Below are positions 7,186-11,246 of a stretch of DNA of 64,000 nt, in pieces (position 1 is the first letter of the stretch; every line of letters begins with the position of its first letter). The translations under genes were made by a program, and so were the position numbers. Origin of the DNA: Allostella vacuolata (GTDB lineage: Bacteria; Pseudomonadota; Alphaproteobacteria; ATCC43930; Allostellaceae); NCBI GenBank assembly GCA_006739055.1, contig AP019702.1:2073001-2137000 (forward strand). The letters are read 5' to 3'. The notes below the pieces were generated by a model. That model was given only the letters and a program-made list of their open reading frames with translations. It was not told where the DNA came from and made no database searches.

Positions 7186-9395
7186 CCGACACCTCGGAGA
7201 TCCGCGACGTCGCGCTGGCCGACGCCCTTGGGGAGCGCTACCTCTCCTATGCGCTGTCGACGATCATGGCGCGCTCGCTGCCGGATGTGCGCGACGGGCT
7301 GAAGCCGGTGCATCGCCGGCTGCTGTTCGCCATGCGCCAGCTCCGCCTCGACCCCAACACCAGCCCGAAGAAGTCGGCCCGCGTGGTCGGCGACGTGATC
7401 GGCAAGTTCCATCCGCACGGCGACCAGTCGGTCTACGACGCGCTGGTCCGCCTGGCGCAGGACTTCGCCGCCCGCTATCCGCTGGTCGACGGGCAGGGCA
7501 ATTTCGGCAATGTCGACGGCGATGGCGCGGCGGCCATGCGCTACACCGAGGCCCGCCTGACCGAGGTGGCCCAGGCCCTGCTGGTCGGCATCGACGAGGA
7601 CGCGGTCGATTTCCGCGCCACCTATGACGGCGAGGGCGAGGAGCCGGTGGTCCTGCCGGCGCGCTTCCCGAACCTGCTGGCGAACGGCTCGGCCGGCATC
7701 GCCGTCGGCATGGCCACCAGCATCCCGCCGCACAATGTCGGCGAGCTGTGCGGCGCCCTGCTGCTGCTGATCGAGGAGCCGAAGGCCGCATCGGAGGCCC
7801 TGCTGCAGCATGTGAAGGGCCCGGACTTCCCGACCGGCGGCGTACTGGTCGAGGGGCCGGACGCCATCCGCCAGGCCTATGCGACCGGCCGCGGCAGCTT
7901 TCGCGTCCGCGCCCGCTGGGAGGCGGAGAAGCTGTCGCACGGCCTCTACCAGGTGGTCGTCACCCAGATCCCCTACCAGGTCGCCAAGTCGCGCCTGGTG
8001 GAGCGCATCGCCAACCTGCTGTCCGAGAAGAAGCTGCCGCTGCTGGCCGACGTGCGCGACGAATCGACCGAGGACATCCGGCTGGTCCTGGAGCCGAAGA
8101 ACCGCACGGTCGATCCCCAGGTGCTGATGGAATCGCTGTTCCGCTCGACCGAGCTGGAGGCGCGCATCGGCCTCAACATGAACGTGCTCGACGCCCAGGG
8201 CGTGCCGCGCGTGATGAGCCTGAAGGAGGCGCTACAGGCCTTCCTCGACCATCGCCACGAGGTGCTGCAGCGCCGCAGCCGCCACCGCATGGCGGAGGTC
8301 GCGCGCCGGCTGGAGGTGCTGGAGGGCTACCTCGTCGCCTTCCTCAACATCGACGAGGTGATCCGCATCATCCGCGAGGAGGACGATCCCAAGGCGGTGA
8401 TGATCAGGCGCTGGTCGCTGACCGACGTGCAGGTCGAGGCGATCCTGAACCTGCGGCTGCGCGCGCTGCGCCGGCTGGAGGAGATCGAGATCCGCCGCGA
8501 GCGCGACAAGCTCAGCGCCGAGCAGGCCGGGCTGCAGAGCCTGCTCGAGAGCGAGCGCAAGCGCTGGCGGGCCATCGCCAAGGAGATCAAGGAGATCGAC
8601 CAGGCGTTCGGCGAGACGACCCTGCTTGGTCGCCGCCGCACCACCATCGAGGGCGCGCCCCTCGTGGCCGAGGTGCCGATGGAGGCGATGGTCGAGCGCG
8701 AGCCGATCACCATCCTCTTGTCCGAGAAGGGCTGGATCCGCGCCACCCGCGGCCATGTCGAGGCCGATGCCGACCTGCGCTTCAAGGATGGCGACCGCGG
8801 CCGTTTCCTGGTCCATGCGGAGACCACCGACCGGTTGCTGCTGTTCGCGACCAACGGGCGCTTCTACACGCTGGCGGCCGACAAGCTGCCGCGCGGGCGC
8901 GGCTTCGGCGAGCCGATCCGCCTGATGATCGACCTTGCCAACGACCATGAGGTCGTGACGCTCTTCCCCCACCGTCCCGGCCGCACCCTGCTGGTCGCGG
9001 CCAGCGACGGGCGCGGCTTCCTGGTGGCGGAGGACGAGACGCTGGCCCAGACCCGGACCGGCCGTCAGGTGCTGAACGTCTCGGGCGCGGTGGAGGCCAA
9101 GGTCTGCGTGCCGGCGCTGGGCGACCATGTCGCCACCGTCGGCGACAACCGGCGCCTGCTCGTCTTCAAGCTCGACGAGGTGCCGACGCTGGCGCGGGGC
9201 CGCGGCGTCATCCTGCAACGGTTCAAGGATGGCGGGCTGGCGGATGCCAAGGTTTTCGCCAAGGCCGACGGCCTGACCTGGAAGATCGGCGAGCGCACCC
9301 GGACCGAAACCGACCTGGAGCCGTGGCTGGCGCCGCGGGCGACCGCCGGCCGCCTGCCGCCCAACGGCTTCCCCAAGAACCAGCGGTTCGGGTGA
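7182..9395 (+). CDS. parC: DNA topoisomerase IV subunit A
   Basis: Type II topoisomerase DNA-cleavage subunit, 737 residues, which decatenates daughter chromosomes together with ParE (not in the window). The winged-helix/tower core is N-terminal, with catalytic Tyr121 in [12 protein letters not shown]. The beta-propeller C-terminal region is short and degenerate, which separates ParC from GyrA. In the quinolone-pocket segment [12 protein letters not shown], Gln82 and Asp86 stand where E. coli ParC has Ser80 and Glu84. The start overlaps the recO stop. Confidence 0.93.
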
Positions 9396-9472
9396 GTTCC
9401 CACCGGTTGGCACGACCCGCCGGGGATGAAACCGGAGGGGGCCGCCAAGAGGCGAATTGGCCATCCGTCAAA

Positions 9473-9571
9473 GCGTCCCTCGACTGGGCTCGGGATGAGG
9501 AATTTCTCTTTTTGCCACAAGCATTTGTGCAGAGGGAGATGCCCCTCATCCGGAGCCCGGTCGAGGGACGC
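9473..9571. repeat. REP-like imperfect palindromic element, about 100 bp
   Basis: Arms 9473-9500 and 9544-9571 (28 bases each) are complementary except for about two positions. The central part is also self-complementary: CACAA and TTGTG flank a GCAT loop, with flanking CTC/GAG-rich pairing. The arm contains the pattern CCCTCGACTGGGCTCGGGATGAGG in imperfect form. It resembles the short dispersed palindromes (consensus roughly CTTCGACAGGCTCAGGATGAGG) frequent between genes of many alphaproteobacteria. Copy number in this genome cannot be judged from one window. Confidence 0.65.
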
Positions 9572-9671
9572 TGCGACCGAGGGGCAATGCCCGGTTTCTA
9601 TCTCGTGGGGTCGTGACCGGCCCGGGCAGAAGGGAGGCAGGCCCGAGGGGCGAGGCGCCCGGCGGAGTTTG

Positions 9672-9697
9672 GGAACATGCCTTCATGCCCGGGCGTT
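9672..9697 (+). promoter_or_regulatory. EcfG-type (general stress response) promoter
   Basis: GGAAC at 9672-9676, 17 intervening bases, and CGTT at 9694-9697 match the alphaproteobacterial EcfG consensus GGAAC-N16/17-CGTT at every defined position. Expected transcription start is near 9703-9706, giving a leader of roughly 26-30 bases before the ATG at 9732. If real, the downstream OmpA-domain protein belongs to the PhyR/NepR/EcfG general stress regulon. Confidence 0.6.
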
Positions 9698-9698
9698 G

Positions 9699-9721
9699 GA
9701 TCATCAGCGTCTCTGATGATC
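9699..9721 (+). promoter_or_regulatory. Perfect 9-bp stem-loop in the leader of the OmpA-domain gene
   Basis: GATCATCAG (9699-9707) and CTGATGATC (9713-9721) are exact complements around a 5-base loop. The stem ends directly against the weak ribosome-binding region GGAAA (9722-9726) and 10 bases before the ATG. It could act in RNA as a translation-modulating hairpin or in DNA as an operator overlapping the transcription start. Confidence 0.45.
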
Positions 9722-9731
9722 GGAAACCGGC

Positions 9732-11246
9732 ATGAAGTTCAAATCCGCGCTGCTCGCGACCACGGTCGGCCCGCTCCTGGCCTTCACCGCCCTGCCGTCC
9801 GTCGCCCAGAAGCCGGATCTGACCGTCGCCCAGGCGCAGACCGAGCCTTCTGAGCAGAACCGGCGGCGCGAGGACCGCTCGCCGCCGCAGGCGACGCCCG
9901 ACCGTTCGCAACGCCCGGATTCGCGCGAGCAGGGTGAGCGTCCGGCCTCGCCGCCGCCGCGGGCGGCCGATGCGCCCCGTTCCGCCGATCAGCCCCGCCC
10001 GGTGCAGCCGCCGCGCGCTTCCGACCGGCCGGCGGCGCCGGACCGTCCGCCCGAGCCCCGCCGTGCCACGGAAACCCCTCGCACCACCGGCCCCGGGCGC
10101 GCCGATGGCCCGCCCGCGGCCGCGCCGCCGGACGCCAAGCCCCCGGTGCCGCCCGCGGCCGAGCGTCGCCCGGACCGCCCGGCGCCGGCCCGGGGCGAAG
10201 CCCGTCCGGTGGTTCCGCCGCGACCGGCCGAGCCGCCCCGCGCCGCCGAGCGGCCGTCGCCGGTCAAGCCGCCGGAGCCGCCGGCCCAGGCCGACCGCGA
10301 CCGGCCCTCCGTCGTCCCGGCGATCCGGCCGCCCGCCATCGTCGATCAGGCGCGGGCGCGGCGGCTCGAGGACCTGCAGGGCAGCCGGACGGAATCGCGC
10401 GAGGAAGGCCGCACCACGATCCGTGAGGGCAACCGCACCATCACCCGGGAGGGCGGCCGCGGCATCATCCGCCATGACGACCTCGACCGCTTCCGCGGCG
10501 GCGGCCGCGAGGTGTCGGTGCAGCAGCGCGGGCGCGAGGTGGTGACGACGGTCGCCCGCCCGGACCGCACCCGGGTCGTCACCGTGGTCGACGCGGACGG
10601 CCGCCTGATGCGCCGCAGCCGCCTGGATGCCCGCGGCCGCGAGACCGTCATCATCGACAACCGCCGCGCCCGCGGCCAGGGCAGCCGGCCCTTCGTCGAC
10701 CTGCCGCCGCCGGCGGTGCGCATCCCGCTCGATCGCTATGTCGTCGCGGCCGGCGCGGTGAGTGCGGCCGTGCTCTACGAGACCCTGCGGGCGCCGCCGG
10801 TCGACCGGCTCGAGCGCGCCTACGCGCTCGACGAGATCCGCTACAGTTCCAGCCTGCGCGACCGCATGCGGCGGATCGACATCGACACGCTGACGTTCGA
10901 CACCGGGTCCTGGGAGGTGAAGCCCGACCAGGCCGCCCAGCTCGAGCAGATTGCCGATGCCATGCGCCGGGCGGTCAAGGCCAACCCGGCCGAGCTGTTC
11001 CTGATCGAGGGCCACACCGACGCGGTCGGCTCCGACATCGACAACCTGTCCCTGTCGGACCGCCGCGCCGAGGCCGTCGCGGCCACCTTGTCGGAGCGCT
11101 TCGCCGTGCCGCCGGAGAACCTGGTGACCCAGGGCTATGGCGAGGAGTTCCCGAAGATCGCGACCGACGGGCCGGAACGGCAGAACCGCCGCGTCGCCGT
11201 CCGCCGCATCACCCCGCTGATGACCGGCAAGCCCGCCCGCTCCTGA
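9732..11246 (+). CDS. OmpA-domain envelope protein with long Pro/Arg-rich linker
   Basis: Exported protein of 504 residues. A signal peptide (about 1-25, ending near VAQ) is followed by about 180 residues dominated by Pro, Arg, Ala and Asp, a short Arg/Gly-rich segment, a predicted membrane or hydrophobic stretch near 335-350, and a C-terminal OmpA/MotB peptidoglycan-binding domain (about 385-495). That domain shows FDTGSWEVKPDQ, EGHTDAVGSD and NRRVAVR motifs. OmpA domains grip the peptidoglycan diaminopimelate, and the linker could span the periplasm. No OmpA beta-barrel is present. The base composition of the linker is extreme even for this window. Confidence 0.8.
   Translation: MKFKSALLATTVGPLLAFTALPSVAQKPDLTVAQAQTEPSEQNRRREDRSPPQATPDRSQRPDSREQGERPASPPPRAADAPRSADQPRPVQPPRASDRPAAPDRPPEPRRATETPRTTGPGRADGPPAAAPPDAKPPVPPAAERRPDRPAPARGEARPVVPPRPAEPPRAAERPSPVKPPEPPAQADRDRPSVVPAIRPPAIVDQARARRLEDLQGSRTESREEGRTTIREGNRTITREGGRGIIRHDDLDRFRGGGREVSVQQRGREVVTTVARPDRTRVVTVVDADGRLMRRSRLDARGRETVIIDNRRARGQGSRPFVDLPPPAVRIPLDRYVVAAGAVSAAVLYETLRAPPVDRLERAYALDEIRYSSSLRDRMRRIDIDTLTFDTGSWEVKPDQAAQLEQIADAMRRAVKANPAELFLIEGHTDAVGSDIDNLSLSDRRAEAVAATLSERFAVPPENLVTQGYGEEFPKIATDGPERQNRRVAVRRITPLMTGKPARS

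Follow-up and report, generated by a model that had tools for sequence, protein, structure and literature searches.

The window, i.e., the whole 64-kb stretch of Allostella vacuolata DNA that was analysed (64,000 nucleotides), carries at 9732–11246 on the plus strand a gene for a 504-aa protein, defined by an open reading frame (ORF) call, a Pfam match and a predicted structural model, with the gene for topoisomerase IV subunit A lying upstream on the same strand. Before this gene, positions 9672–9697 of the plus strand hold GGAACATGCCTTCATGCCCGGGCGTT, an exact GGAAC-N17-CGTT composed of the –35 element GGAAC of an EcfG-type promoter (9672–9676), which is kept in the three nearest orthologues, and the –10 element CGTT (9694–9697) after a spacer of 17 bases, within the 16–17 bases that separate the two boxes of EcfG promoters. 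An exact scan revealed that this was the sole match on both strands of the window, bearing out the preliminary description, which had reported a match to all the defined bases of the motif about 35 bases before the start codon: 34 bases separate the motif end at 9697 from the ATG at 9732, and the distance from motif start to ATG is 60 bp, placing the site just upstream of the start codon. The transcription start was estimated in that description at 9703–9706, on the plus strand. Outside the promoter, with some 60 bp between its end and the motif, 9396–9610 is taken up by a copy of a roughly 210-bp repeat whose core is palindromic; this repeat is intergenic and abundant in the A. vacuolata genome (at least 97 match rows on both strands, from the 40 of 116 candidate places that were scored). 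It was rejected as the origin of the promoter, since its matches stop near 9611, before the motif.

The match by itself is not significant, because 0.29 exact occurrences of GGAAC-N17-CGTT are expected per window by chance and at least one was found in 26 of 100 shuffles. One match in 64 kb carries little weight, and the case therefore rests on context and conservation; it is from its position and conservation that the motif at 9672–9697 takes its above-chance status.

The sole Pfam match of the 504-aa protein was OmpA (PF00691) at residues 388–486, with an E value of 6.8e-18 and 65.3 bits against a cut-off of 27.2, and its PDB sequence matches were also OmpA-type domains. The N-terminal part comprises a putative signal peptide at about residues 1–26, recognised by eye, and a linker with 44 Pro and 27 Arg among 160 residues (31–190), so that the OmpA-domain protein with a long Pro/Arg-rich linker announced previously was recovered; a predicted beta-meander at about residues 220–309 then precedes the OmpA-type domain. 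The AlphaFold2 model of residues 197–504, obtained with 35 sequences, presented a pLDDT of 87.3 and a pTM of 0.88, and its top Foldseek rows were the domains of OprF, OmpA, Pal and TagL, as for an OmpA-type fold. In the viral library, the three rows at E 0.001 carried the names of outer membrane or OmpA-domain proteins. All 35 rows share D234 and R248/R249 (numbered along the aligned part), residues whose equivalents in OmpA bind diaminopimelate. None of the best 25 NCBIfam models reached its cut-off, and the lipoprotein models YiaD (65.4/175 bits), YfiB (52.3/128) and Pal (42.2/125.35) were all below theirs. In comparison with the OmpA C-terminal-like, Pal, OprF and YiaD proteins, the C-terminal domain is the same by Pfam, PDB sequence and fold, whereas the 504-aa protein differs by its long Pro/Arg linker and beta-meander. 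Altogether, a periplasmic protein anchored to peptidoglycan may be inferred. When modelled alone, the beta-meander gave a weak model (pLDDT 69.8), and Foldseek with this isolated segment retrieved nothing at E 0.001. A known fold for it was considered and rejected: the best VIA-align matches (Z 6.3) were the GerS/CwlD complex and OspA, with uracil-glycosylase inhibitor, LolA and RseB among the later rows, and these model-based matches are read as a common arrangement only.

A protein search across 61 genomes at E 1e-20 matched four of them, namely the own genome, two of the three congeners and G057, from another family. The strict motif was found before the start in all three other copies, with N17 at 61 bp in the congener G001, N16 at 66 bp in G057 and N16 at 85 bp in the congener G002. 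The gene upstream encodes topoisomerase IB in the two congeners, in contrast to topoisomerase IV subunit A in the window, so that the promoter accompanies the gene even where the neighbouring gene is another. In the G002 copy (L018), the signal peptide and the conserved part are in different frames, due to either a frameshift or a sequencing error. The distribution of the gene is patchy, with no match in the 39 genomes of a sister family of the order and with best named rows from Rhodoplanes, Pseudorhodoplanes and Pseudolabrys at 61–63%, which suggests horizontal transfer.

More distant homologues were gathered by an alignment-based search, which gave at least 80 named loci, mostly from Bradyrhizobium, the others among the matches listed being from Rhodoplanes, Pseudorhodoplanes, Pseudolabrys, Methylobacterium, Microvirga and further genera. 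Fifty of the 80 listed loci were usable, leaving out 26 with less than 150 bp before the ORF, L095, whose ORF lacks a start codon over its first 420 bases, and L061, L079 and L099, the called start of which was unlike the family signal peptide; homologue starts were picked by a hydrophobicity score. Among these matches, GGAAC-N16/17-NGTT was placed 25–300 bp before the start in 12 of the 50 loci (L040–L045, L048, L051, L064, L098, L117 and L118), only at 301–650 bp in 19, and was absent within 650 bp in 19. With the strict CGTT, the same 50 loci were divided into 9 proximal, 16 distal and 25 without the motif. Five controls (backward, opposite strand, permuted and two wrong spacings) yielded 0, 0, 1, 1 and 0 of 50, and in an earlier set of 53 loci nine controls gave 0 or 1 of 53, with 111 of 10,599 random windows of the same loci. 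The shortest motif spacings among the 12 proximal loci were 59 (L118), 60 (L117), 64 (both L041 and L043) and 101 bp; the lineages are fewer than the loci because L041/L043 and L117/L118 are near-duplicates. Four further class-wide loci comprised two with the motif at promoter distance, L124 (–10 GGTT, 60 bp) and L125 (76 bp), and two without it there, L123 and L126. Near-matches were left uncounted, as were one-mismatch sites: the former were GGAAC-N16-CATT at 64–65 bp in L107 and L111 and GGAAC-N18-CGTT at 207 bp in L062, and the latter were at 164–178 bp in L081, L084, L085, L087 and L102. The check on orthologues proposed in the preliminary description thus came out in favour of the promoter for the three nearest copies, the distant loci giving a mixed picture, with 19 of 50 devoid of the motif within 650 bp.

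It was considered whether every locus with a strict motif could be counted as direct support, and this was rejected, as in 16 of the 25 loci with a strict motif it was 301–650 bp from the called start; an earlier count in a –600 to +250 window had given the strict motif in 25 of 53 loci, partly other than the 50. In 14 of the 16 distal strict cases, the longest intervening ORF was Pro-rich and started 16–118 bp after the motif start, the remaining two being L059, with an ORF in another reading, and L094, with an unrelated one. A small Pro-rich ORF, mostly beginning with MPIEPPE, was observed in L049, L066, L067, L073, L077, L080, L092, L108 and others, and in the distal cases it is probably this small ORF that is the direct EcfG target. 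Four Bradyrhizobium loci (L062, L075, L083 and L109) presented the small Pro-rich ORF without the GGAAC-N16/17-NGTT motif. The 24 Bradyrhizobium-labelled loci among the matches listed comprised 14 distal, 1 direct and 9 with none, and the distal EcfG-type site of the 14 was 463–579 bp upstream of the homologue. Such a distal site, mostly before the small Pro-rich ORF, would represent a rewiring in Bradyrhizobium.

In the A. vacuolata genome (G000, a single contig of 5.83 Mb), 99 strict sites were found, with one 25-base site standing twice (2985379 and 3022615), which corresponded to 98 distinct sites after merging those with the same flanks. Gene starts were assigned by a codon-score script trained on the window. 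More than half of the distinct sites (52/98) lay between called genes and had a start on their own strand no more than 350 bp away, compared with 440 of 17,716 random positions (2.5%), a yardstick drawn from the window alone, and 22/98 were located 50–80 bp before a start, against 108 of the 17,716 random window positions (0.6%). Three others fell within a called gene of the same orientation, yet no more than 120 bp from a start, and the remainder consisted of 13 other sense-internal, 23 antisense-internal and 7 intergenic sites without a nearby start. The window gene, with its 60 bp, falls into the modal class of 60–69 bp (11 of the 52 promoter-placed sites), and the 17-base spacer is present in 25 of these 52. 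A backward-read control (99 versus 38) was set aside as a yardstick and position was used instead, because the two patterns differ in dinucleotides.

Several of these sites precede gene types known from the general stress response. Fifteen downstream products were hand-picked out of the 55 sites at promoter distance, which is a selection and not a tally, and by Pfam they included Ku, PRC-barrel, BON, DUF4142, lipocalin, a PhyR paralogue, AI-2E transporter, FGE-sulfatase-like, phospholipase D, Ysc84, SH3, DUF3606 and DUF3309 proteins; L178 had no Pfam match at E 1e-5, and L131 had a match below cut-off only. Sphingomonas melonis Fr1 has Ku, PRC-barrel and topoisomerase IB among its EcfG-dependent genes, as listed in PMC6599016. 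The PhyR paralogue (L153, C1:2241853, minus strand) is itself preceded by an EcfG motif, at 244 bp from its called start. Another locus of this genome (L143) has an EcfG motif inside a gene and, 781 bp further downstream, a small Pro-rich ORF (about 48 aa), whose likeness to the Bradyrhizobium small ORF is one of composition only.

The PhyR-NepR-EcfG partner switch is an established system, and both phyR and nepR are present in this genome, where they share one locus with an EcfG-like sigma gene (L025, C1:3545000–3560000). The phyR gene, on the minus strand, encodes 266 aa with the Pfam domains PhyR_sigma2, receiver and PhyR_sigma-like, and nepR and the sigma gene are on the plus strand, divergent from phyR. 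The sigma gene, coding for 211 aa with sigma regions 2 and 4 and PhyR_sigma2, is followed by an ORF for a Cache-HisKA_2/HWE kinase, an arrangement that is usual for a general stress response locus and is also described in PMC7083833. One NepR match in the genome was over the cut-off (C1:3552529–3552621) and two were below it, and three PhyR_sigma-like matches were over the cut-off. PF22233 alone is weak evidence for PhyR, because it also matched in 4 of 14 specificity controls, including Bacillus subtilis (over the cut-off in two), and the PhyR identification rests on the full-protein Pfam results. Judging from the locus and the PhyR_sigma2 match, the sigma factor linked to nepR is likely to be EcfG. 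Near C1:859680 there is another sigma gene, identical in domain content, after a NepR-like ORF near C1:859552, which scored 22.8 bits, below the Pfam cut-off of 25.7.

The strict motif was not found between phyR and nepR of this locus, the nearest being inside phyR (L025:7012–7037), antisense to it and directed at nepR. Counterparts with diverged spacers are upstream of nepR in two congeners (L028:6792 and L029:6480), and this motif could serve as a long-leader autoregulatory promoter, or could simply reflect protein constraint on phyR. About 1.1–1.2 kb before the phyR-internal motif there is another strict one (L025:5854, L028:5654 and L029:5299), which in L025 is 61 bp before the 51-aa DUF3309 gene mentioned above.

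The EcfG motif has been given as GGAAC-N16-CGTT in passages on Rhizobium etli (PMC3892343) and Sphingopyxis granuli (PMC7083833), and as GGAAC-N17-20-GTT in those on S. melonis (PMC6599016). The 17-base spacer described here is one base above the N16 form and inside the S. melonis range, and the resemblance to the promoters in these passages extends to the exactness of both boxes, the short distance to the start codon and the phyR, nepR and sigma genes in the genome. Envelope and uncharacterised genes occur in the S. melonis Fr1 EcfG list (PMC6599016), for example #1281 ('Predicted outer membrane protein') and #1478 (PRC-barrel), and they share with the window gene the placing of an EcfG motif some tens of bases ahead of the coding region. 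The string 'ompa' is absent from the main text of that article, and no EcfG-dependent OmpA-domain protein is named among the listed titles and abstract openings, or in the passages, of open-licence PMC articles. Many EcfG targets lack an assigned function, the share in S. melonis being about 40% (PMC6599016).

The motif, its position and conservation, the phyR, nepR and sigma genes and the OmpA domain can all be read from the sequence, and taken together they make it very probable that 9672–9697 is a working EcfG promoter for a 504-aa stress protein, itself presumably exported and anchored to peptidoglycan. Under stress, PhyR would bind NepR and free EcfG, and RNA polymerase carrying EcfG would recognise GGAAC/CGTT at 9672–9697 and start transcription at about 9703–9706, giving a short-leader mRNA. 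The 504-aa protein would then be exported by its signal peptide, bind peptidoglycan through the C-terminal OmpA-type domain, keep the beta-meander and the long flexible Pro/Arg linker in the periplasm and probably reinforce or tether the envelope. The assignment to the PhyR-NepR-EcfG regulon made in the preliminary description is thereby supported at the sequence level, by the presence of the machinery, the genome-wide promoter placement of the motif and its retention in the nearest orthologues. As an addition to a known stress regulon, the gene has good support but is of a fairly ordinary kind; it links to the general stress response an envelope protein family that has no specific NCBIfam name and occurs in several alphaproteobacterial groups, and suggests peptidoglycan anchoring as part of this response.

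A chance motif, with transcription of the gene coming from a different promoter or reading through from the topoisomerase IV subunit A gene, would agree with the chance expectation for the window and with the orientation of that upstream gene, but is highly unlikely in view of the strict motif in the three nearest orthologues, two of them with topoisomerase IB upstream, of the promoter placement of the motif across the genome and of the lack of any sigma-70-like site in 9390–9800. The promoter might also be real but depend chiefly on the second EcfG-like sigma factor, rather than on the phyR-adjacent one. The 225-aa ORF near C1:859680, with regions 2 and 4 and PhyR_sigma2 (Pfam on its first 207 aa), and the NepR-like ORF before it speak for this possibility, which is somewhat unlikely but deserves consideration; its probability overlaps with that of the EcfG promoter reading because it is a variant of the same explanation.

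Control by a sigma factor of another group, or by a second regulator acting on a palindrome at 9699–9721, is very improbable as well. The palindrome has perfect 9-base arms (9699–9707 and 9713–9721) over the predicted transcription start, which would suit a regulator, but the genome has no second copy of it with 2 or fewer mismatches, and it was not visible by eye in the congener leaders, and the promoter agrees with the GGAAC-N16-CGTT and GGAAC-N17-20-GTT forms in the published passages cited above. As an operator, it was rejected for this single copy. It forms the inner part of nested inverted repeats at 9681–9737 (plus strand), whose outer arms are 9681–9689 and 9729–9737; the start codon falls within the 3′ one of these, and hence in the outer stem. 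This arrangement was likewise not seen by eye in the congener leaders. The fold of 9672–9760 stood out for its stability (z –3.5; none of 200 shuffles equalled it), in comparison with that of 9704–9792, beginning at the predicted start (z +0.96; 162 of 200 shuffles as stable), two segments that also differ at their 3′ ends. Besides serving EcfG, the promoter could conceivably double as a translation filter by which only stress-initiated transcripts are translated well, although this is improbable. If so, a read-through mRNA would carry both outer arms and have its start codon locked in a strong stem, whereas the EcfG-started mRNA from about 9704 would be devoid of the 5′ arm and its fold would be unremarkable.
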